From the IMG/VR virus record IMGVR_UViG_3300043418_000114, positions 186,001 to 250,000 of that record: DNA of 64,000 nucleotides; one strand, 5' to 3'. The DNA comes from a virus. Positions 28,158 through 55,775 of this stretch are shown here, one piece after another. Below the pieces are notes generated by a model, which saw nothing but the letters and a program-made list of their open reading frames with translations, ran no database searches and was not told where the DNA came from. A program made the position numbers and the translations under genes. Numbering within the stretch: position 1 is the first letter of the stretch; every line of letters begins with the position of its first letter.

Positions 28158-29063
28158 TCAATTTCCTTCTACAAAGTTACGAACCCATGCTAAACGAGCT
28201 TGCTCGTCCATAGCAGTGTACTCAACAATGTTGGCACGAATAGCGTCAACAAGTGGATAATACTCCTCGTCTAGGTTTTGCTTGATATCTTTGTTCATAT
28301 CAACCAATTTATCTGTACGAGGATTACGTGCTACCCACTTAGAGGTCAAGTAGTAAGGACTCTTGATCTTGGAGCTAACTCCATCTTGTGTATAGAACAC
28401 ATAGCCTTCATGCTTACATTCCTTGACTAAGTTCTTTAGTTGAGCCAGATTAGTTGTTACACTTTCTGGTACAAAACAGTTGAACATTGCGCCAAGTTCT
28501 TTCAACATGAAAACATCATGACCTACCTTAGAACCCCATGCGTTCTCACGATGACCCAAGATGTACATACCTGGCTTTTCAATCACGATATGTGGATCGT
28601 TAGGATGTACGCACTCAAACATGAAAGTCATGTCACGGCAGTCGTCACCCATGAGTGCCATTTGCCAGTCTGTCCAAGGCATGTGCTTTAGCATCATTTC
28701 TTTTGCCATGGTAACAAAATCACTGTCAGTAGAACCAGTAGTAGATACCAATACATCGCCATTGTGCCAAGTCACTGAAACCATAAAGCCATTGACCTTA
28801 CGGAAAGCAGTCACTTGAGTATCATCGGACAACACAGGTGCTTCTTTTTCGATACCATAATTGTAGATTTTTGTGAATGGATATGCAACTAGGTTGAAAT
28901 CCTTGTCAACAATCGTACCACGGCATTCAGCAATGTAGTCGTTCCACAAGTTATCGTAGAACACTTTCTTCTTGTACTTTAACACATAGATGCCGTCGCC
29001 AGCCTCTTTCATGTTCACAAGGCCAGAAGTCTCTACGTAGTTTTTCAATTCATCTTTAAACAT
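28158..29063 (-). CDS. T4 Rnl1-like RNA ligase
   Basis: 301 aa from ATG 29063 (an ATG at 29075 is the alternative). Nucleotidyltransferase motifs are in order: FRKVNGF (motif I, catalytic Lys; the usual KxDG reads KVNG), ECRGTIV just before it, TFMFECVHPND (III), HEGYVFYT (IV) and KIKSPYY (V). Joins 5'-phosphate and 3'-OH RNA ends; in T4 it repairs cleaved tRNA with polynucleotide kinase. The kinase-like gene at 31308 is a possible partner. Confidence 0.88.
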   Translation of the reverse strand: MFKDELKNYVETSGLVNMKEAGDGIYVLKYKKKVFYDNLWNDYIAECRGTIVDKDFNLVAYPFTKIYNYGIEKEAPVLSDDTQVTAFRKVNGFMVSVTWHNGDVLVSTTGSTDSDFVTMAKEMMLKHMPWTDWQMALMGDDCRDMTFMFECVHPNDPHIVIEKPGMYILGHRENAWGSKVGHDVFMLKELGAMFNCFVPESVTTNLAQLKNLVKECKHEGYVFYTQDGVSSKIKSPYYLTSKWVARNPRTDKLVDMNKDIKQNLDEEYYPLVDAIRANIVEYTAMDEQARLAWVRNFVEGN

Positions 29064-29262
29064 CTTTAGTTCCATTTTGTTGAAGACTAGATACGTATTT
29101 TACATCATACCATCCAATTGAGCAATACTTTCTATCAAGTATTTCTGCTTGCAGACGTTTGCCGTTGTCATATTTGACAGAAAGCAACACATATCCATCT
29201 TCACCTTTTTTGCCATCAAGTAGCACAAATTCGCCAATGTCTTGTAGAGTAATTGCAGTCAT
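29056..29262 (-). CDS. Small beta-rich phage protein
   Basis: 68 aa: LQDIGEFVLLDGKKGEDGYVLLSVKYDNGKRLQAEILDRKYCSIGWYDVKYV, the strand pattern of a small barrel. Overlaps the RNA-ligase start. Function unknown. Confidence 0.72.
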   Translation of the reverse strand: MTAITLQDIGEFVLLDGKKGEDGYVLLSVKYDNGKRLQAEILDRKYCSIGWYDVKYVSSLQQNGTKDV

Positions 29263-36273: not shown

Positions 36274-37695
36274 TTACGACAAGTCGTAACGTGTCTTCAT
36301 CACTGTCTTCAACATGACGGCTTCTGGTGTGAAGTCTTCCAAGTCGTTAGACAATACAGAAGTTGCTAGTGCTGGGCTAAAGCCTGACACTAGTGCAGTA
36401 CCACTCTTATCGAATGACACTGGTGTGTTACCGTAACTTGCGTTCAAGTTCCAGAAGACAACTTTTGGAAGTGCGTAGCCTGCGGCTTCGTACTTACGTG
36501 CGATCATTTGCATCGCGGTGTCGTCATGCTTAACACATTGGTTAAATTGCATGTCTGAGAAGATAACAAGAGTTTCAGGCATTTCTGCTTGTGGAACACT
36601 GTTTTCTGTCGCAGTCTTCAGGATCTTTTCAAACGCCTTGTGAAGGTCTGTACTCATATCCCAGTTAGACTTGACCATTTGGTCAATCTTTTGGTTGATG
36701 TTACCCTTTAGGTGCATCAATTCTGGCTTGCTTGAGAAGGTCAAGAAGGTATCTTTGAACTTACCCTTGTTCTTATCAGCAAAGTACAAACCTAGGCTAA
36801 CAGCAACTTCCATGCAAGACAGGTTGCTCTTAGAGCCATGACCACCTGCTGGACAAGACATTGAACCAGAAACGTCAACCAGAGGAAGAACGTTTGCATC
36901 GCCAACGTAGTTAGGCATTGCTTCCCATTGCTTTTGGATCAAGTCAGTTTCAGTCTTGTTAAACTGCATCCAACCACCAATACGACCCTTCAGTACGTCA
37001 TATGGGAACACTGCGCCTGCGTTAACCTTAACACCAGCTTCGCCCTTAACGAGCTTAGTTACATATTCAGCGTATGTAGTACCATGACGGCCAAACGCTT
37101 TCTTGTAACGTGCATGTGCCACTGAAGGAACATGTGAGTAGTTGATGTTATCCCAATTTTGGGCACACATTTGTGTTTCAACAACATTAGTAAGGCCGAC
37201 TAGGCTCTTACGATATTGTTTAGGGGTCATTCCGAAGAATTGACGGATTTCACGTGCTACTTCACCTTTACGTGGAGTCCACTTAGCCGCAAGACCGTTA
37301 CCTGCACGTAGTGCATCGCCGAGCATAGTGTATGCCTTGGCCTTCACAGGCTGAGTCTTAAACACTAGCAAGTCGTCGTAACGACCCAATTCTGGAATCT
37401 TAGCCATCAAACGCATTGCGTCTTCTGGGTTAGTCTTTTCCAAGTGAACGAGGATGTCTCGGAAGACTTGACGTTCACCTGAACCACCACGTGCATCACG
37501 TGCCCATTGAGCGATACGCAATGCAAGATCAGAGTTCTCTACATAAGCCGCTGTGAAAGCCGGCACGATGTTTTTACCACGGCTTGCACCGATGTTGTAA
37601 AACAAATCAACACATGCGTTAGCACTTGATTTGCGAGCCTTCATACCATTGGTGGTACGAGTTGATTGATTCTTAACTGCTTCTGCGAATTGCAT
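36274..37695 (-). CDS. Ro60/TROVE-like vWA protein (DUF2828 type)
   Basis: 473 aa. Residues ~1-240 are helical repeats resembling the TROVE ring of Ro60 (e.g. NIVPAFTAAYVENSDLALRIAQWARDARGGSGERQVFRDIL, IPELGRYDDLLVF); ~265-470 is a von Willebrand A domain with intact MIDAS DVSGSMS (Asp274, Ser276, Ser278), VIFSDMQFNQC and FWNLN. Ro60 proteins bind Y RNAs and misfolded RNAs and help RNA decay. Structured RNA flanks the gene on both sides, and a sigma-70 promoter lies at 37793. Ribosome site AAAGGAG. Confidence 0.85.
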   Translation of the reverse strand: MQFAEAVKNQSTRTTNGMKARKSSANACVDLFYNIGASRGKNIVPAFTAAYVENSDLALRIAQWARDARGGSGERQVFRDILVHLEKTNPEDAMRLMAKIPELGRYDDLLVFKTQPVKAKAYTMLGDALRAGNGLAAKWTPRKGEVAREIRQFFGMTPKQYRKSLVGLTNVVETQMCAQNWDNINYSHVPSVAHARYKKAFGRHGTTYAEYVTKLVKGEAGVKVNAGAVFPYDVLKGRIGGWMQFNKTETDLIQKQWEAMPNYVGDANVLPLVDVSGSMSCPAGGHGSKSNLSCMEVAVSLGLYFADKNKGKFKDTFLTFSSKPELMHLKGNINQKIDQMVKSNWDMSTDLHKAFEKILKTATENSVPQAEMPETLVIFSDMQFNQCVKHDDTAMQMIARKYEAAGYALPKVVFWNLNASYGNTPVSFDKSGTALVSGFSPALATSVLSNDLEDFTPEAVMLKTVMKTRYDLS

Positions 37696-39694: not shown

Positions 39695-39770
39695 TGGAGC
39701 GGGAAAAGGGGCTCGAACCCTCGACCTATACCTTGGCAAGGTATCGCTCTACCAACTGAGCTATTCCCGC
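39695..39770 (-). tRNA. tRNA-Gly(GCC)
   Basis: Minus-strand cloverleaf; anticodon loop TTGCCAA, stems ATACC/GGTAT; acceptor GCGGGAA paired with TTCCCGC, discriminator T and encoded CCA. Ends the minus-strand tRNA array at its low-coordinate side. Confidence 0.97.
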
Positions 39771-39776
39771 ATGTTC

Positions 39777-39851
39777 TGGTACATCGACACGGTTTCGAAC
39801 CGCGGACCCTCTCCGTGTAAAGGAGACGCTCTACCCCTGAGCTATCGATGC
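39777..39851 (-). tRNA. tRNA-Val(TAC)
   Basis: Anticodon loop TTTACAC on TCTCC/GGAGA; acceptor GCATCGA/TCGATGT; ACCA end encoded. Confidence 0.96.
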
Positions 39852-39862
39852 ATATATTCTAT

Positions 39863-40051
39863 TTAGCCACCCTGTTGGCTATCTTTAATTTCTGTTCCCC
39901 AGTCAATTTCCTTCTTGTCATCAGACATATCAGGTAATGGAGGTGGAACGTAACGTTCACGCTTTGGCTTTTCACCAAAGATTTTGTCCATGTTCTCACC
40001 GAATTCTGTAGGACTAATACTAAATGGACGAGGACGAGAACCCTTGCTCAT
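39863..40051 (-). CDS. Small Pro-rich phage protein
   Basis: 62 aa: MSKGSRPRPFSISPTEFGENMDKIFGEKPKRERYVPPPLPDM. Coupled to the next upstream gene (stop overlaps start). Similar short proteins are seen in large phages; function unknown. Confidence 0.68.
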   Translation of the reverse strand: MSKGSRPRPFSISPTEFGENMDKIFGEKPKRERYVPPPLPDMSDDKKEIDWGTEIKDSQQGG

Positions 40052-40218
40052 TACTTAGATTCCTTACGTGAACCCTTCTGACGGGCATCGCTCTCTGCGA
40101 TTTGTGTAAAGCTACGCAAGAATGCGCCACGCTTGTGTGAATCTAGAATTGTTGCAGATGCTATCTTAACTAGCTTGCCTAGCTTCACTGCTTTTGGATC
40201 ATAACCTCTACATGTCAT
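40051..40218 (-). CDS. Small basic protein between tRNA genes
   Basis: 55 aa: MTCRGYDPKAVKLGKLVKIASATILDSHKRGAFLRSFTQ, ending KGSRKESK. AAGGA ribosome site; located just downstream of tRNA-Pro. Function unknown. Confidence 0.66.
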   Translation of the reverse strand: MTCRGYDPKAVKLGKLVKIASATILDSHKRGAFLRSFTQIAESDARQKGSRKESK

Positions 40219-40241
40219 ACTATTTTCCTTTTATGTTAAAT

Positions 40242-40319
40242 TGGTCTCGGTAGTAGGATTCGAACCTACGACCCTCTGCTCCCAAAGCAGATGCGCTAAC
40301 CAGACTGCGCTACACCGAG
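40242..40319 (-). tRNA. tRNA-Pro(TGG)
   Basis: Anticodon loop TTTGGGA on TCTGC/GCAGA; acceptor CTCGGTG/TACCGAG; ACCA encoded. Confidence 0.97.
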
Positions 40320-40325
40320 ATTGTT

Positions 40326-40399
40326 TGGATGCGGGTGACAGATTCGAACTGCCGATGCTCCGAGCTTATGAGACTGGAGTGGTGACCACCCTACCCGCG
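40326..40399 (-). tRNA. tRNA-Met(CAT), initiator-like acceptor
   Basis: Anticodon loop CTCATAA. The acceptor CGCGGGT/ACCCGCA leaves C1 opposite A72, the unpaired 1-72 position typical of initiator tRNA, but the three G-C pairs of the initiator anticodon stem are absent and the D arm is short (GGTG-GTCAC-CACT). TCCA encoded. Confidence 0.85.
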
Positions 40400-40410
40400 T
40401 AAATCGTTTT

Positions 40411-40485
40411 TGGTGCGTGATAGAGGGATCGAACCTCTGACCTTCTCAATGTCACTGAGATATTCTACCGCTGAAATAATCACGC
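40411..40485 (-). tRNA. tRNA-Val(GAC)
   Basis: Anticodon loop GTGACAT on TCTCA/TGAGA; acceptor GCGTGAT/ATCACGC; ACCA encoded. Confidence 0.93.
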
Positions 40486-40488
40486 ATT

Positions 40489-40613
40489 TTAACAGGTTCT
40501 CTTTTTTCGTGCTACCACTACACCAACGCGAAGACCAACTCGCGCCTGGGATTCGAACCCAGCCCCTCTTTTTTACAGAAAGATTATTAAGATTGCTGAA
40601 AAGAACCTAATGG
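40489..40613 (-). ncRNA. RNA element G: permuted tRNA(GTA) body in an AGGTTC/GAACCT helix
   Basis: Minus strand order: outer helix AGGTTC(TTTT), CAGCAA, anticodon-type hairpin TCTTT-CTGTAAA-AAAGA (anticodon GTA), T arm CTGGG-TTCGAAT-CCCAG, 3' acceptor GCGCGAG, 6-nt loop, 5' acceptor TTCGCGT, D arm GTG-TAGTGGTAG-CAC, then GAACCT closing the helix. The 3' half of a tRNA thus precedes its 5' half, and the acceptor strands pair over 7 bp. Either a permuted tRNA or a Y-RNA-like tRNA mimic. Confidence 0.7.
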
Positions 40614-40620
40614 TCAAACT

Positions 40621-40696
40621 TGGTGGAGGTGACAGGACTCGAACCCGCTACCTATTGCTTGCAAAGCAACCGCTCTCCCAGGTGAGCTACACCCCC
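40621..40696 (-). tRNA. tRNA-Ala(TGC)
   Basis: Anticodon loop TTTGCAA; acceptor GGGGGTG/CACCTCC; ACCA encoded. Confidence 0.96.
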
Positions 40697-40771
40697 GAAA
40701 TTTGTTACACACTACTTATCTCATTATACGCCATGTGTAAGGGCGAGGCTTCTAACTCTTTCGAGTTTTGT

Positions 40772-40848
40772 TGGTGCGGATGGTGGGACTCGAACCCACA
40801 AAATTTGGCTTCTAAGACCAACACGTATACCAATTCCATCACATCCGC
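40772..40848 (-). tRNA. tRNA-Leu(TAG), short variable arm
   Basis: Anticodon loop CTTAGAA on TTGGT/GCCAA; Leu-type D arm (GATGGAATTGGTA). The variable region is only ATTTT instead of the long class-II arm normal for tRNA-Leu. ACCA encoded. Confidence 0.92.
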
Positions 40849-41200: not shown

Positions 41201-42083
41201 TGGAGCACTGAGAATACATGCTTACCGAGTAACACCTCAGACATTATTACAATCCTTGCGAGACTGCTTTCTTCTGACTTCCACTGCAACCTCTTGCGAG
41301 TATCACAGTCTGTTACCAACATCGCCGTTTTAAGTCAGGCATTAGACTTGACGCTGTATGCTATTCTACGCTTTCTATCCCGTTGACCTTTAGAGCCATT
41401 CACTACCGCTAAGTAGTTACGAAACTTCCTGCATAAACAGATTTCACCTTGCGAGTTACGTCTGACTGGATTATCTTGCGACTCCAGTATTAGATGCTTT
41501 TCACATACAACCGAGACAGACTTTGCTTTTTTAATCGATAGAAGGGATCGAACCTTCAGCCGACTGCTTGAAAATGCAGTTGATCTACCATTGATCTATA
41601 TCAACCTACTGTGATGTGCTGTCTCAGTTGCTTCATAATCTTTTGGACTACAAAATACAACACGCCACGTACCTTTTGTCTCGCGGACTACTCAGTCGTC
41701 TTTCACGATTAATGTCGGGTCTCGGCTTTCGCGTACCTCCATCAACCATTCAAACTGCATTACAACTCTTAGATGCGACTCCTCGAATCATAACACTACC
41801 CTTTCTCATACCAATTAACTGGACTGGTTTTGTCGTGAGGTCAGCACCACCTGTTACTCTCTAATGACTTGCGTTACCCTCGATATTATCTCAGGCGCTT
41901 AAGCCACTAATTCTTTCCACAACTTCCAGCGTCATTGTTATCACCACCGGTCTTATCAGTGATGAAACCCTCGCGGGTTTGAGCAGGCTTGCTTAGATGA
42001 ACTATTTCTAGCGCGGGTCTGTAGGAGACTACCGCTTTGGGCCGATCACTCGGCTTATTCTAATGAGGCTAAGCCCCCATAAA
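41201..42083 (-). ncRNA. Large gene-free structured RNA region with an embedded tRNA
   Basis: About 880 nt without a credible gene. The minus strand repeats CTCGCAAG three times plus GTCGCAAG (41255-41490), has GNRA-capped hairpins AAACCC-GCGA-GGGTTT (41965-41980) and GCCGA-GTGA-TCGGC (42042-42055), and encloses a tRNA (41533-41605) in a GAGACAG/CTGTCTC helix. Size, tRNA neighbourhood and an internal tRNA recall the GOLLD RNA class; this is a hypothesis. Confidence 0.45.
41533..41605 (-). tRNA. tRNA-Glu(TTC)-like with 8-nt anticodon loop
   Basis: Acceptor GTTGATA/TATCGAT, D arm GATC/GATC, T arm GAAGG-TTCGATC-CCTTC are good. The anticodon stem ACTGC/GCAGT closes an 8-nt loop ATTTTCAA instead of 7, so TTC is the likeliest reading but not certain. 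CCA is not encoded. Lies inside an outer GAGACAG/CTGTCTC helix. Confidence 0.75.
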
Positions 42084-42323: not shown

Positions 42324-42394
42324 TTTTTTAAAGAACATCACTGATTTCTCAGTGTCAATACAAGTATTGTATAAGGTTTTTAATTCACTGTCAA
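42324..42394 (-). promoter_or_regulatory. rRNA-operon-like promoter and antitermination leader 1
   Basis: Minus strand: TTGACA (42394-42389), 17-bp spacer, TACAAT (42371-42366), then boxB-like hairpin CACTGA-GAAA-TCAGTG (42354-42339) and boxA-like TGTTCTTTAAA (42337-42327). The same order stands at 46332 and 46121. It drives the gene-poor RNA region and tRNAs below 42.3 kb. Confidence 0.82.
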
Positions 42395-42424
42395 CAACTT
42401 TTTTAAGATTGTTAACCATTTTAT

Positions 42425-42500
42425 TGGAGCGGGAGGCGGGAGTCGAACCCGTCTATTTCAGTTTGGAAGACTAACGTGTAACCACAAACACTTCACCCGC
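42425..42500 (-). tRNA. tRNA-Gly(TCC)
   Basis: Anticodon loop CTTCCAA; acceptor GCGGGTG/CTCCCGC; TCCA encoded. Its 5' edge touches the late promoter of the plus-strand gene at 42513. Confidence 0.95.
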
Positions 42501-42512
42501 ATAAATAACTTT
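42501..42512 (+). promoter_or_regulatory. T4-like late promoter abutting a start codon
   Basis: CATAAATAACTTT immediately before the ATG at 42513; the transcript would carry almost no leader. Confidence 0.5.
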
Positions 42513-42677
42513 ATGCATATCTATGACGCTATCACAAACTCTGGATTACACATCCACTTGTCCATGAGCGCCGATAATACATTTTACATTCTAGTATACG
42601 ACATTGATAACTTCATGTTAACTATGAAATTTTTCAACAATGTAGATACTGCAATGCAATTTATCCATTCACTATGA
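42513..42677 (+). CDS. Small hypothetical late protein
   Basis: 54 aa: MHIYDAITNSGLHIHLSMSADNTFYILVYDIDNF... FIHSL. Plus strand, opposite to the surrounding tRNA genes, with a late-type promoter 5 nt upstream and no Shine-Dalgarno. Stop overlaps the next start (ATGA). Function unknown. Confidence 0.6.
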   Translation: MHIYDAITNSGLHIHLSMSADNTFYILVYDIDNFMLTMKFFNNVDTAMQFIHSL

Positions 42678-42865
42678 GTAGCCCAACAGATTACGAAATC
42701 TTATATAGATTAAACACTAGTCCATATGCAGAGACTAAGAGTTGGGTACTGCCTAATACATTCAAAGCAATGTTCTCAAATGAGAACTTACCTGAATTTG
42801 TTATTGATGAACTATTAAAGAAACAGACGTTTAAATTAGACGATCAGTTTCCTCAATACAAATAA
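42674..42865 (+). CDS. Small hypothetical late protein
   Basis: 63 aa: MSSPTDYEILYRLNTSPYAETKSWVLPNTFKAMFSNENLPEFVIDELLKKQTFKLDDQFPQYK. Second gene of the small late unit inserted between tRNA genes. Function unknown. Confidence 0.68.
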   Translation: MSSPTDYEILYRLNTSPYAETKSWVLPNTFKAMFSNENLPEFVIDELLKKQTFKLDDQFPQYK

Positions 42866-42867
42866 TC

Positions 42868-42943
42868 TGGCATCCCGGGAGGGATTTGAACCCCCAACTT
42901 ACGGTTTTGGAGACCGTTGCTCTGCCAATTGAACTACCGAGAT
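42868..42943 (-). tRNA. tRNA-Trp(CCA)
   Basis: Anticodon loop CTCCAAA on ACGGT/ACCGT; acceptor ATCTCGG/CCGGGAT; GCCA encoded. D-stem position 24 is G, so it is not the Hirsh-type UGA suppressor form. Confidence 0.97.
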
Positions 42944-42947
42944 ATAT

Positions 42948-43013
42948 AAAACAGGATGCTTATTTTTCAATTAAAAGTTGAATTATAAGATGTTGCTGGA
43001 CGCATCCTAAAAC
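42948..43013 (-). ncRNA. AGGAT/ATCCT-helix RNA element C
   Basis: Minus strand TTTTAGGATGCGTCCAGCAA ... GCATCCTGTTTT; closing helix AGGATGC/GCATCCT, conserved CAGCAA, inner hairpin TTCAA/TTGAA. Lies between tRNA-Trp and tRNA-Ser. Confidence 0.62.
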
Positions 43014-43014
43014 T

Positions 43015-43104
43015 TGGCGGAAACGGTGAGATTCGAACTCACGGACCCTTTGAAAGATCGCCGGTTTTCAAGACCGGAGCCATAGACCACTCGACCACGT
43101 TTCC
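43015..43104 (-). tRNA. tRNA-Ser(TGA)
   Basis: Anticodon loop CTTGAAA on CCGGT/ACCGG; long class-II variable arm; acceptor GGAAACG/CGTTTCC; GCCA encoded. Confidence 0.97.
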
Positions 43105-43117
43105 ATTAAAATATTTA

Positions 43118-43203
43118 TACCATATGTAAACACACTAGCGTTTTTCACTAAACTACAACTTGACTGGACTTGACCAGTGACTCTATTGTGCTTGCATATG
43201 GTG
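43118..43203 (-). ncRNA. Inverted-repeat RNA, AAACACA/TGTGTTT family
   Basis: TACCATATGTAAACACA pairs with TGTGCTTGCATATGGTG; the interior on the minus strand contains ACTGG/CCAGT. Confidence 0.52.
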
Positions 43204-43312
43204 ACAGTTTAGTCCGATAACTGCCAAGAGTTGTGGTGATCCGGCACACCTTTTATGTATAAGTTGACTACAAGAGGCTTATACACTAGGGCCTTCACGT
43301 TGCCCTATTTTT
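43204..43312 (-). ncRNA. Short structured stretch
   Basis: No gene. Hairpins CAGTT/AACTG and GTATAAG/CTTATAC (7 bp, 43256-43283) are visible. Confidence 0.35.
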
Positions 43313-43442
43313 TAATACCATATAGAAACACACTGTCGTTTCTCTTTCCAGTCTAGACAACCTCGCTTACGAAGCACGATTATATCACAGGATTACGCAT
43401 CCTGCTCGTCACTGTACTCAAGCAATGTGTTTTTATATGGTA
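43313..43442 (-). ncRNA. Inverted-repeat RNA, AAACACA/TGTGTTT family
   Basis: ACCATATAGAAACACA pairs with TGTGTTTTTATATGGT (15 of 16). The interior holds AGGAT/ATCCT and GCTT/AAGC hairpins. One strand runs into the CCA end of tRNA-Lys. Confidence 0.52.
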
Positions 43443-43512
43443 GGGGCACAGGGAATCGAACCCTGATAGACCGGTTAAAAGCCGGATATTCTAGCCGTTG
43501 AATTATACCCCC
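43438..43512 (-). tRNA. tRNA-Lys(TTT)
   Basis: Anticodon loop CTTTTAA on CCGG/CCGG; acceptor GGGGGTA/TGCCCCT; ACCA encoded. Confidence 0.95.
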
Positions 43513-43515
43513 ATA

Positions 43516-43590
43516 TGGTCCCAGTGCTGAGATTCGAACTCAGTTCTCTCGGCTTAAGAGGCCGGACTTCACCTTCAAAGTTTCTCTGGG
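43516..43590 (-). tRNA. tRNA-Lys(CTT)
   Basis: Anticodon loop CTCTTAA on CGGC/GCCG; acceptor CCCAGAG/CACTGGG with one A-A mismatch; D arm ACTT/AAGT; ACCA encoded. Confidence 0.9.
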
Positions 43591-43689
43591 ATGGATCGTA
43601 AGAAATTTTCTTTTACGTGCCATCTGAGACCATACGGGGGTCAAAGATGACACTATCGTTTACCTGAACGTTTCATGTCATTTACCTTT

Positions 43690-44046
43690 TTAAGATTTAA
43701 GTGCTTTTAAAATATTATCCCAAGATTCAGTTGGATTATGACCTTGATCTAGCAAGGCAACATAAGTCTTAACTGCATCTTCTGGAATCTTGAAATAGAT
43801 GTTTGCGTAGGTGCAGTCGAATGAATCATCTTCATCACGAACGTACCATGGATGACTTGACATTTCATCAAATACATCTTCATAGTCTTCACGATTGCCA
43901 CCACCATTACGTGTGTGAACAACAATGTGACCATCTTCTACATAAACATCACGAAAGCGACCGAAGTCACCTTTTGTTTTATCTAACAGACTCAGGAGTT
44001 GATCCGAGTTAGGGTTAGTGCCAAACATCATGTTATACAAACTCAT
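43690..44046 (-). CDS. Conserved T4-type phage protein
   Basis: 118 aa from ATG 44046 (AAAGGAG). FGRFRDVYVEDGHIVVHTRNGGGNREDYEDVFDEMSSHPWYVRDEDDSFDCTYANIYFKIPEDA is a pattern repeated in many T4-type phages. Inserted between tRNA genes. Function unknown. Confidence 0.78.
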   Translation of the reverse strand: MSLYNMMFGTNPNSDQLLSLLDKTKGDFGRFRDVYVEDGHIVVHTRNGGGNREDYEDVFDEMSSHPWYVRDEDDSFDCTYANIYFKIPEDAVKTYVALLDQGHNPTESWDNILKALKS

Positions 44047-44144
44047 TTCATTCTCCTTTGTTAATTTGTGGAAGTTCCGATAGCACCCATCGTCACTTAC
44101 AACCGTTGAGTAGCCTTGCATCAAAACAGTGCTACTATTTGCTC

Positions 44145-44219
44145 TGGAGGACAGGATAGGAATCAAACCTACCTAGAACGGATTTGCAATCCGCCACATA
44201 ATCGCTCTGTCACCTGTCC
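44145..44219 (-). tRNA. tRNA-Cys(GCA)
   Basis: Anticodon loop TTGCAAA on GCGGA/TCCGT; acceptor GGACAGG/CCTGTCC; TCCA encoded. Confidence 0.96.
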
Positions 44220-44228
44220 ATATTTTGT

Positions 44229-44316
44229 TGGCGGAGCATGTAGGAATCGAACCTACTCACCTCTTTCGAAATGATGGATTAGCAATCCATTGCCTTAACC
44301 GGTCGGCCAATGCTCC
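44229..44316 (-). tRNA. tRNA-Ser(GCT)
   Basis: Anticodon loop TTGCTAA on TGGA/TCCA; class-II variable arm; acceptor GGAGCAT/ATGCTCC; GCCA encoded. Confidence 0.97.
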
Positions 44317-44345
44317 GTAAAATATCTGATTAAAAATCATAAAAT

Positions 44346-44486
44346 AGTGTATTCAGCTGGCAGACTGCAACAAGATACTATCCTCTAATATATTAGTATC
44401 ACAGTGATATTAAGTTCCGGACCCTAATATCACCAAAGTCTGGCAAATAAGATATATAAATTCAAAGTTTATTAAATGAATACACT
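44346..44486 (-). ncRNA. Structured RNA with nested helices and two hairpins
   Basis: Closing helix AGTGTATTCA/TGAATACACT (10 bp perfect), then CAGACT/AGTCTG, enclosing GATACTA/TAGTATC and GTGATATTA/TAATATCAC (9 bp). The perfect nesting over 140 nt without any gene is strong evidence of a folded RNA. Not recognised. Confidence 0.65.
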
Positions 44487-44499
44487 AATTTATGATTTT

Positions 44500-44576
44500 T
44501 GGTGGGCCCAACAGGACTCGAACCTGTGGCCAAGGAATTATGAGTTCCCTGCTCTAACCAACTGAGCTATAGGCCC
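44500..44576 (-). tRNA. tRNA-Met or Ile2 (CAT)
   Basis: Anticodon loop CTCATAA on GGAA/TTCC; acceptor GGGCCTA/TGGGCCC; ACCA encoded. Body could be elongator Met or Ile2 whose C34 is lysidine-modified; sequence alone does not decide. Confidence 0.93.
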
Positions 44577-44591
44577 ATAATCTAAAACCAT

Positions 44592-44619
44592 ATTATAATA
44601 CACTCCCAATGCATGTCAA
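44592..44619 (-). promoter_or_regulatory. Sigma-70 type promoter
   Basis: TTGACA (44619-44614), 16-bp spacer, TATAAT (44597-44592) on the minus strand, upstream of tRNA-Met/Ile2 and tRNA-Ser(GCT). Confidence 0.75.
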
Positions 44620-44633
44620 GCACTGTAACTTCA

Positions 44634-44707
44634 TGGTACATCTTGAACCACAGTTTCGAACCTGTGAAATGTAGCACTATCTAGTATCAACTCTTTCGAA
44701 TTCAAAA
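44634..44707 (-). tRNA. tRNA-like element, anticodon not recognisable
   Basis: T arm CACAG-GTTCGAA-CTGTG and an 8-bp acceptor TTTTGAAT/GTTCAAGA are visible, followed by TGTACCA; the D and anticodon arms do not fold normally. A decayed tRNA or tRNA mimic. Confidence 0.4.
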
Positions 44708-44762
44708 CATACTAGACCCGGCAAGCTGGGGCCTCTATATATGACAAGAGTATACTATAATA

Positions 44763-44849
44763 TGGTGCGGGTGGCCGGAATCGAACCGGCACGGTGTCTC
44801 CACCGACGGATTTTAAGTCCGTTACGTCTACCTATTTCATCACACCCGC
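44763..44849 (-). tRNA. tRNA-Leu(TAA)
   Basis: Anticodon loop CTTAAAA on ACGGA/TCCGT; normal long variable arm; acceptor GCGGGTG/CACCCGC; ACCA encoded. Confidence 0.97.
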
Positions 44850-44856
44850 ATATTAC

Positions 44857-44933
44857 TGGCGCCTCGTAGGGGACTCGAACCCCTGGCCTCTTGCGTGACA
44901 GGCAAGCGATCTAACCAACTGAGCTAACGAAGC
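44857..44933 (-). tRNA. tRNA-Asp(GTC)
   Basis: Anticodon loop CTGTCAC on CTTGC/GCAAG; acceptor GCTTCGT/ACGAGGC; GCCA encoded. Confidence 0.96.
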
Positions 44934-44938
44934 GTAAA

Positions 44939-45014
44939 TGGTGGGCTATCGCGGATTCAAACCACGCAACAACTCTATGTTGTAGAGTTAGGATTTCCAA
45001 TCACTCTAAAGCCT
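44939..45014 (-). tRNA. tRNA-like element with CCA end, atypical arms
   Basis: 3' end is tRNA-like: T arm CGTGG-TTTGAAT-CCGCG, ATAGCCC, ACCA. The 5' side AGGCTTT pairs at 5 of 7 positions. The middle hairpin ACTCT-ACAACAT-AGAGT has no T at position 33, so no anticodon can be assigned. Degenerate tRNA or mimic. Confidence 0.45.
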
Positions 45015-45139
45015 ATAAATTCATCACCGTTGACGTTTTACCATTGAAAGACACGGTGCCATCTGTCTCAGTCGCATTACCTATCACCCCATGCTCGGAT
45101 TCATAGATAGGCATTCTACTGATAATTCAATGTTTATCT
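45015..45139 (-). ncRNA. Structured stretch with a D-arm-like hairpin
   Basis: No gene. CACCGT/ACGGTG closes a hairpin with a D-loop-like CAATGGTA; CTATC/GATAG lies beyond it, and CTGTCTCAGTCGC repeats a motif seen at 41621. Confidence 0.35.
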
Positions 45140-45226
45140 TGGTGGATGCGGCTGGAGTTGAACCAGCAGTGCCTTTCGGGCGGCGGGTTTACAGCCCGCT
45201 GGGGTTACCAATTTTCCTACACATCC
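45140..45226 (-). tRNA. tRNA-Tyr(GTA)
   Basis: Anticodon loop CTGTAAA on CGGG/CCCG; class-II variable arm; acceptor GGATGTG/CGCATCC; ACCA encoded. Confidence 0.96.
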
Positions 45227-45227
45227 A

Positions 45228-45656
45228 TTATTTGTTTTTGCCACACCAAGTGTCAGTCTGTGAATGACAATTGGGACAGAGTAATCTTAAGTTTTTAAAC
45301 TTGTGATTGTGATTATCGCCGTCTATGTGATCTAAATGTAGAGAAATTTCTTTTCCCATCCATTCTTCTAATCCACACGACGAGCATTTGTTATCTAATA
45401 TTTTTTCTTTTAACAAACGCTTTTTCAGTTTTAGTGTTTGATATGTAGGATGCAATCCTTCTAGAATTTCATTCAACTCTATCTTCTTTGCACCACCACC
45501 TATCTTAAAATCTAAACCTAATCTTTTTGCTCTACGCCAAACTGTAACATCTGGCACATTAAAATAATGTGCTAACTTGCTCAAGACTGGCGTAATGTTA
45601 TACTGTTCTATCAATTCAGTATCTGTAAACTTTTCTGTACTATGTTTTTGTTTCAT
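45228..45656 (-). CDS. HNH homing-type endonuclease
   Basis: 142 aa. N-terminal helix-turn-helix-like PVLSKLAHYFNVPDVTVWRRAKRLG; CSSCGLEEW ... ISLHLDHIDGDNHNHKFKNLRLLCPNCHSQT is an HNH nuclease with CxxC pairs. Sits 1 nt from tRNA-Tyr inside the array and starts 4 nt after a CATAAATA late-type element without a Shine-Dalgarno. Probably a selfish endonuclease. Confidence 0.9.
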   Translation of the reverse strand: MKQKHSTEKFTDTELIEQYNITPVLSKLAHYFNVPDVTVWRRAKRLGLDFKIGGGAKKIELNEILEGLHPTYQTLKLKKRLLKEKILDNKCSSCGLEEWMGKEISLHLDHIDGDNHNHKFKNLRLLCPNCHSQTDTWCGKNK

Positions 45657-45660
45657 ACAG

Positions 45661-45670
45661 TATTTATGAA
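45661..45670 (-). promoter_or_regulatory. T4-like late promoter abutting a start codon
   Basis: Minus strand CATAAATA, then CTGT and the ATG at 45656. Confidence 0.45.
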
Positions 45671-45699
45671 AAGTTAGATATGAAATCTAAAAATAAACT

Positions 45700-45776
45700 T
45701 GGTGCCCCCAGCGGGACTCGAACCCGCAGAATCTTGATTTTGAGTCAAGCACGTATACCAATTCCATCACAAGGGC
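45700..45776 (-). tRNA. tRNA-Leu(CAA), short variable arm
   Basis: Anticodon loop CTCAAAA on CTTGA/TCAAG; variable region only ATTCT; acceptor GCCCTTG/TGGGGGC; ACCA encoded. Confidence 0.93.
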
Positions 45777-45813
45777 AAAAAGAAACATACTAGCGATCTA
45801 CTGTTGTTGTGAT

Positions 45814-45875
45814 TGAACACAGGACTTAGTATAAGTCGTCCCAACTCCGCATCTTTTTAACACAAGTCCTGCGGT
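45814..45875 (-). ncRNA. Inverted-repeat element CAGGACTT/AAGTCCTG
   Basis: An 8-bp perfect closing helix around ~45 nt between tRNA-Leu(CAA) and tRNA-Glu. It recalls the AGGAT-helix family but lacks the CAGCAA motif. Confidence 0.4.
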
Positions 45876-45904
45876 TGCTTGTGAGCTAATATATTTCAAA
45901 AACT

Positions 45905-45980
45905 TGGTACTCCGTATGGGAATCGAACCCATCTTACCAACGTGAAAGGCTGGTGTCCTAAACCGATAGACGAACGGAGC
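45905..45980 (-). tRNA. tRNA-Glu(TTC)
   Basis: Anticodon loop CTTTCAC on CCAGC/GTTGG; acceptor GCTCCGT/ACGGAGT; ACCA encoded. Confidence 0.96.
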
Positions 45981-45989
45981 ATAGTTATT

Positions 45990-46106
45990 CACTATATGTA
46001 AACACAAAAGCAATACTAACCGGGCGGTCGATATCGGCGTTAGCCAAGTCACTTACCCAGACTTTCAAACTAATGTGCTTACATATAGTGACTGCTTCAC
46101 AGCAGT
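45990..46106 (-). ncRNA. Inverted-repeat RNA plus adjacent hairpin
   Basis: CACTATATGTAAACACA pairs with TGTGCTTACATATAGTG (45990-46090, 15 of 17); next to it ACTGCT-TCAC-AGCAGT (46091-46106). First RNA downstream of promoter 2. Confidence 0.55.
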
Positions 46107-46120
46107 GTATATGTTGGTTG

Positions 46121-46192
46121 TTTTTTTAAAGAACAGTGCTGATTTCTCAGCGTCAATACATGTATTGTATAACATGTTTGAATCATTGTCAA
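46121..46192 (-). promoter_or_regulatory. rRNA-operon-like promoter and antitermination leader 2
   Basis: Minus strand TTGACA (46192-46187), 17-bp spacer, TACAAT (46169-46164), boxB-like GCTGA-GAAA-TCAGC (46151-46138), boxA-like TGTTCTTTAAA (46136-46126). Drives tRNA-Glu, Leu, Tyr and beyond. Confidence 0.85.
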
Positions 46193-46201
46193 ACTATTTT
46201 T

Positions 46202-46314
46202 AAGTATTTTAGATGGATTCGAACCATCGTTTCACTGGCGATTCCCACCATACAGTTACTATGACTTCACTGTGTGGGCCCTTGCGTCCTAAGCCCCTAG
46301 ACGATAAGACACTT
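46202..46314 (-). tRNA. Large tRNA-like RNA with a long middle arm
   Basis: T arm GATGG-TTCGAAT-CCATC, D arm CGTC/GACG and a ~9-10-bp acceptor AAGTGTC-TTA/TAA-AATACTT (one mismatch). In place of a normal anticodon arm there is a ~10-bp stem CCCAC-ACAGT/ACTGT..GTGGG with a 12-nt loop. First RNA after promoter 3; no CCA encoded. tRNA mimic or tRNA with insertion. Confidence 0.45.
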
Positions 46315-46331
46315 AGAAATAGTCTGACAAA

Positions 46332-46400
46332 TTGTTAAAGAACAGTGATTGATTTCTCAATCGATACACGTATTGTATGCGAGTTTTTATTTAGTGTCAA
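46332..46400 (-). promoter_or_regulatory. rRNA-operon-like promoter and antitermination leader 3
   Basis: Minus strand TTGACA (46400-46395), 17-bp spacer, TACAAT (46377-46372), boxB-like GATTGA-GAAA-TCAATC (46362-46347), boxA-like TGTTCTTTAACAATT. The last motif is very close to proteobacterial rrn boxA leaders. Confidence 0.87.
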
Positions 46401-55719: not shown

Positions 55720-55775
55720 TTGCTCGATTTCTCAAGCAATGTGTGTAGTATATATCTGTTTTGAGTTGTTGTCAA
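55720..55775 (-). promoter_or_regulatory. Sigma-70 promoter with boxB-like hairpin (array, outer)
   Basis: TTGACA (55775-55770), 17-bp spacer, TATACT (55752-55747), followed by GCTTGA-GAAA-TCGAGC, the same GAAA-capped hairpin as in the rrn-like leaders at 42.3 and 46 kb. No good boxA is seen after it. Confidence 0.82.

Follow-up and report, generated by a model that had tools for sequence, protein, structure and literature searches.

The stretch of DNA considered here, referred to as the window, comprises 64,000 nucleotides and corresponds to bases 186001-250000 of the 364,247-base viral record IMGVR_UViG_3300043418_000114. The major capsid protein is Gp23-like; its counterparts in giant T4-like phages, among them Vibrio phage 2.275.O, PA5oct and Asteriusvirus 121Q, share 63-67% identity with it. 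ARAGORN called 45 transfer RNA (tRNA) genes, which form a minus-strand array running from 54.9 down to 39.7 kb. Within this array lie three short units, here named leaders A, B and C, each composed of a promoter, a GAAA-capped hairpin resembling boxB and a boxA, in the order found in the leaders of ribosomal RNA (rRNA, rrn) operons (Table 1). A sequence-only reading of this DNA had described the same three minus-strand units, and all of their elements were confirmed to read as stated; the positions 42324, 46121 and 46332 given for them mark the boxA ends, and the units reach about 70 nt further upstream.

Table 1. Positions of the leaders and of associated features in the window
Feature	Position	Strand	Basis or remark
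Leader A promoter TTGACA-N17-TACAAT	42366..42394	-	exact match
Leader A boxB-like hairpin CACTGA-GAAA-TCAGTG	42339..42354	-	near predicted RNA 5' end; stem covariation in relatives
Leader A boxA TGTTCTTTAA(AAAA)	42328..42337	-	fits GYTCTTTAANA
Leader B promoter TTGACA-N17-TACAAT	46164..46192	-	exact match
Leader B hairpin GCTGA-GAAA-TCAGC	46138..46151	-	model match and predicted fold
Leader B boxA TGTTCTTTAA(AAAA)	46126..46135	-	fits GYTCTTTAANA
Leader C promoter TTGACA-N17-TACAAT	46372..46400	-	exact match
Leader C hairpin GATTGA-GAAA-TCAATC	46347..46362	-	model match and predicted fold
Leader C boxA TGTTCTTTAA(CAATT)	46335..46344	-	fits GYTCTTTAANA
Leader C stretch resembling the E. coli rrnB leader	46319..46347	-	26/29 nt, boxA and the ensuing CAATTTGTCAGACTAT; equalled by 0/1000 shuffles
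GOLLD conserved 3' domain, downstream of leader A	41205..41668	-	RF02032, 203.5 bits
tRNA gene embedded in GOLLD	41532..41606	-	ARAGORN, Rfam
Seven tRNA genes past GOLLD (Leu, Ala, Val, Met, Pro, Val, Gly)	39695..40848	-	ARAGORN
Structured untranslated RNA right after leader B	45982..46125	-	folding z = -6.35
tRNA genes following leaders B and C (13, tRNA-Glu first)	42425..45980	-	ARAGORN
Degenerate leader at the head of the array	55720..55775	-	promoter and hairpin TTGCTTGAGAAATCGAGCAA, without boxA

The leaders and what follows them

The motif GYTCTTTAANA is the published gammaproteobacterial boxA consensus (PMC5725501), and its three matches on both strands of the 64 kb are those in leaders A, B and C. 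Exact matches to TGAGAAATCA were likewise confined to the leaders, and TGTTCTTTAA occurred in the leaders and at one plus-strand site, 24754. When hairpin and boxA were combined in the pattern GAGAAATC-N2-14-TTCTTTAA, three matches were obtained in the whole 364,247-base record and none with the reversed control. A covariance model (Infernal, filters off) scored the leaders at 41.8-57.8 bits, the next best match reaching 11.9. Sites with up to two mismatches to TTGACA-N17-TACAAT numbered 30, against 14.0 ± 3.6 expected. GNRA hairpins begin 6-13 nt past the -10 box, which places the hairpin at or near the predicted 5' end of the RNA, and boxA mostly follows 25-32 nt past the -10 box. Folding prediction left boxA unpaired in leaders A and B (minimum-energy fold) and in leader C (centroid); the folding z-scores of the short leaders by themselves were modest (-0.5 to -1.9).

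Twenty-one of the 45 array tRNAs lie downstream of a boxA leader, and the 24 above 46.9 kb are upstream of leaders A, B and C alike. Leader A precedes a GOLLD RNA with the usual 3' domain, nearby tRNAs and an embedded tRNA; the full Rfam model gave a score well above its gathering threshold of 150, with the 5' domain probably occupying about 42320-41669. Judged from this arrangement, leader A would transcribe GOLLD and co-transcribe the seven tRNAs beyond it. The embedded tRNA varies among phages, the call for a four-base anticodon in the window being unclear and GTT and TTT being read by eye at 3852-3923 of contig L139 and 6312-6383 of contig L141.

The structured RNA after leader B matched no Rfam family. 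Its frame, a constant hairpin of type CTGCTGTGAAGCAG with a long closing stem around TATATGTAARCACA / TGTGTTTRCATATA, was seen again in contigs L144, L355 and L378, the inner domain varying from phage to phage. The tRNA block downstream of it also holds two small open reading frames, one of them HNH-like, and a promoter without boxA (44619-44592). After leader C, at 46310-46200 (-), lies a tRNA-Glu-like fragment with tRNA-like 5' and 3' parts and an altered middle, which is not called by ARAGORN.

Among the neighbouring genes, two within the array (-) resemble HNH endonucleases, one clearly (47871-47311) and one just under the Pfam cut-off (45656-45228). A protein encoded at 36274-37695 (-) matches phrog_850, annotated as "RNA-binding protein", and Pfam DUF2828/DUF7788, and an RNA ligase (28158-29075) lies in the same region as this gene and the array.

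Conservation across viral contigs

The module TGAGAAATCA-N2-10-TGTTCTTTAA was found in at least 118 IMG/VR stretches. Among the matches listed, 91 of 99 promoter-bearing sites, the window included, have a tRNA less than 600 nt downstream: 72 within 150 nt and a further 19 within 600 nt. At two more the distance is up to 2 kb; one of these is leader A, for which the tRNA embedded in GOLLD is the nearest. For the remaining six no tRNA was in reach, the contig ending within 330 nt in four. The first tRNA is Glu in 50 and Gln in 15 of the 72 close sites. A further 24 listed sites without a recognised promoter were set aside; they represent mostly a few repeated contexts without tRNAs, and one is cut by the contig end. 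Strong matches to the covariance model occurred in 18 whole viral records, one to four in each, and the regions inspected around them were tRNA arrays.

The two outer stem pairs beside the searched core, which the search pattern did not impose, are formed in all 57 distinct leaders among the listed matches, with five and three pair types. Over the stem as a whole, 98.3% of cells are paired, and the covariation score was 0.302, against 0.139 ± 0.018 in shuffled alignments; it also exceeded that of slid controls.

Each half of the leader was also searched for without the other. With the promoter and GYTCTTTAANA alone, 61 of 106 distinct sites lay less than 700 nt upstream of a tRNA, compared with 1 of 21 for a reversed boxA with the same promoter (Fisher p = 5e-6, to be taken only as a guide because related contigs are not independent). 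A GNRA-tetraloop stem of at least 5 bp was present at 25 of these 61 sites, 200 shuffles giving a mean of 0.17 and a maximum of 2, and the stems differ in sequence (GTTAA-GAAA-TTAAC, GTTAA-GCAA-TTAAC, ACTAA-GCAA-TTAGT and others). Conversely, the promoter and hairpin alone gave 106 distinct sites over all loci collected, 50 of them with GYTCTTTAA within 25 nt. Among the others, in two contigs (L217, L236) boxA is kept beyond an RNA insertion of about 100 nt after the hairpin, and in two others (L064, L285) the near-match GTTCATTAA stands in its place. The insert of these four contigs begins GGTTGTTTC and resembles a small mobile RNA element.

The association with GOLLD was found to recur as well. 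In the window and in L139/L042, L141/L189, L186, L187 and L188, the distance from the leader to the GOLLD 3' domain is about 510-655 nt; these are counted as contigs, of which some are close relatives and not independent origins. Variant leaders precede GOLLD in L193, where boxA has C at the Y position, and L194; in L147 the leader is further upstream, with tRNAs in between, and no recognisable leader was found at the GOLLD loci of L190, L191 and L192. In L138 (3724-5000) a GOLLD-like 5' domain stands behind a boxA leader and is apparently split by an insert, endonuclease-like by eye, and the Rfam model no longer matches.

Likeness to bacterial rRNA operons and other known systems

A model trained on the phage leaders alone (R1) was run on 369 genomes from the class of Pantoea. 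At E<=0.01 it gave six matches, all in rRNA operons: one genome supplied five boxA sites, in 16S-23S spacers behind tRNA-Ala, and another genome a single 16S leader. A pattern search of genome contigs gave 14 from Pantoea, Enterobacter and Erwinia in which GAGAAATC lies inside an rrn-leader-like boxB and is followed by boxA, the 16S start being visible in three of them (L122, L127, L129). Leader C, unlike leaders A and B, retains part of the stretch after boxA, where a boxC would be expected. Its exact core had no match in the bacterial genome collection. With one mismatch allowed, GYTCTTTAACAATTTRTCAGAC was found, among 274 genomes, only in the Pantoea seed genome, at seven sites, of which one was confirmed as an rrn leader and the other six are presumed to be such; the tail of leader C is thus Enterobacterales-like, which does not fix the host. 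The comparison with rrn leaders of candidate hosts, suggested earlier as a route to the host, has narrowed the range of hosts and not identified one.

The leaders show the promoter, hairpin and boxA in rrn order in all three cases, and are followed by tRNAs and GOLLD and by no rRNA genes, so that they are rrn-type leaders and not rrn operons. Their description as rrn-type boxB-boxA leaders was borne out by this order, by the geometry, the GNRA hairpin, the perfect boxA, the wide viral conservation, the rrn-like tail of leader C and the phage-trained model. Compared with the boxB-boxA-boxC leader of the proteobacterial rrn P2 promoter (E. coli and others), they are alike in the promoter, the hairpin near the start site and a boxA of the form GYTCTTTAANA, and in leader C a CAATTTRTCAGAC tail follows as well; they differ in what they precede, in a boxC that appears weak or absent, and in a hairpin that is shorter and A/U-rich. 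A boxA leader likewise stands before the long untranslated repeat-rich transcript of CRISPR arrays (Stringer et al., cited in PMC7862264), and the one in Legionella, GTTCTTTAAAA, matches the core of leaders A and B exactly (PMC7862264); these CRISPR leaders belong to a bacterial defence locus, and the available part of that source describes no conserved GNRA hairpin for them. Lambda nutL and nutR also combine boxA and a hairpin in a phage transcript, but in the order boxA-boxB, with a requirement for phage N and in the service of early protein operons. In the literature searched, with subscription papers mostly outside its coverage, neither phage tRNA arrays nor GOLLD RNAs were described as having a boxA leader. 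The case would be one of a known mechanism in a new setting.

Proposed mechanism and alternatives

NusB, S10 and an RNA polymerase beta-prime domain were sought in four giant records (the present one and three related ones); none was detected and the positive controls worked, so that the leaders are likely to be served by the RNA polymerase and Nus factors of the host. Together with the sequence of the leaders, their conservation and covariation, their placement before tRNAs and GOLLD and their likeness to bacterial rrn leaders, this makes it likely that they are rrn-type and are used with host NusB/S10 for the processive synthesis of long untranslated phage RNA. The giant phage and more than 100 uncultured viral contigs probably start some of their tRNA-array and GOLLD transcripts with such promoter-hairpin-boxA leaders, borrowing NusB/S10 from the host.

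In the proposed mechanism, a sigma70 promoter read by host RNA polymerase would start a long untranslated RNA, with a GNRA-capped boxB-like hairpin at its 5' end and boxA after it. The nascent boxA would most likely be bound by host NusB/S10 (NusE), which with NusA, NusG and SuhB on the polymerase would make up an rrn-type antitermination complex, and elongation would stay processive across the untranslated and strongly structured tRNA and GOLLD sequence. Escape of the leader transcripts from Rho is plausible, and the 5' end of the RNA may be held in a loop, aiding folding and processing. A 5'-terminal hairpin is able to protect an RNA from decay; the one in the leaders probably sets up the presentation of boxA and may also shield the 5' end. 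In rrn operons, boxA is necessary and sufficient for the recruitment of the factors (PMC10250234), and in Legionella the CRISPR boxA was reported to increase transcripts of a synthetic CRISPR array about 10-fold (PMC7862264).

That the leaders drive the tRNA array, as the sequence-only reading had it, holds in part: leader B is followed by a structured RNA of about 125 nt and then by 13 tRNAs, but leader A heads GOLLD, leader C heads a tRNA-like fragment, and boxA is missing at five further strong promoters of the array. Several points weigh against the proposed mechanism, these promoters among them. When leaders A and B were each aligned to E. coli rrnB, the result was no better than with shuffles, and because of this their kinship to rrn rests on architecture and the model search. 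The leaders were not found in Vibrio phage 2.275.O, PA5oct, 121Q, Phosso or RaK2, among which are the nearest cultured relatives, and a BLAST comparison with 50,697 phage records revealed none, which is a weak test for elements of 40 nt. The matches that BLAST returned from phage records, with the leaders or a Pantoea rrn leader as queries, were chance or apparently bacterial sequence, and the strong matches from one search were to tRNA-Glu only. It has also been argued that boxA at rRNA may serve maturation more than resistance to Rho (PMC4807359). Finally, some marine phages retain the promoter and a TTGAGAAATCAA hairpin without boxA, so that at least in that group the hairpin must do something independent of boxA. 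Eight contigs, mostly marine by guess (L287, L213, L215, L242, L256, L197, L203, L239), have a promoter and GTTGAGAAATCAAC hairpin followed by CTGCGG...GCGGCGATAGGAAC and no boxA; such leaders often stand 55 nt ahead of a tRNA, and no Rfam match was obtained for those of L213, L215 and L203.

An alternative is that the same Nus complex is recruited chiefly to help GOLLD and tRNA precursors fold, loop and be processed during transcription, and not for escape from Rho. In its favour, one leader stands immediately ahead of GOLLD, which is giant in size and intricately folded, and this arrangement recurs in other phages; the maturation of rRNA has been ascribed to the complex (PMC4807359). We consider this possible, if somewhat unlikely, in that three GOLLD loci have no recognisable leader, the deletion of rrnB boxA had modest effects (PMC10250234) and the predictions are mostly common to both explanations. 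It is improbable that the leader is a nut-type site whose GNRA hairpin is recognised by an N-like phage protein, in the way that lambda N recognises boxB: the hairpin is indeed strongly conserved, in some phages without boxA, but in all three leaders it precedes boxA as in rrn and not as in lambda nutR, the strong matches sit in tRNA arrays where the neighbours were inspected and not in early operons as nut sites do, and the stem is free to vary in sequence, only the pairing and the loop being kept.

The position of the hairpin at the predicted 5' terminus, and the marine class that has it without boxA, could also be explained by a 5'-end stabiliser, the boxA-like sequence being incidental or a processing signal. 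Such an account appears quite improbable, since boxA is held at the published consensus and is kept or nearly kept past the insertion of about 100 nt, and the reversed-boxA control had no link to tRNAs. For a takeover of the host, in which the leaders would titrate Nus factors and lower host rRNA synthesis, it can be said that rRNA was reported to fall when abundant lambda nutL RNA titrated Nus factors (introduction of PMC4807359); a decoy would not need placement before tRNAs and GOLLD, and this explanation is very improbable. Beyond processive synthesis with host NusB/S10, a wider proposal, tentative and rather doubtful at present, is that giant phages adopted the host rRNA transcription complex as a general factory for large untranslated RNAs, including the assembly of GOLLD cages, and thereby draw Nus factors from host rRNA synthesis.

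Phage tRNA arrays of 20-50 genes and giant RNAs such as GOLLD are not shielded from Rho by ribosomes, and the conserved boxA leader would offer a direct and mutable handle on their transcription. The many divergent natural boxB-boxA leaders may also serve as a set for asking what the boxB hairpin of rrn operons does, its role there having been called puzzling (PMC10250234).

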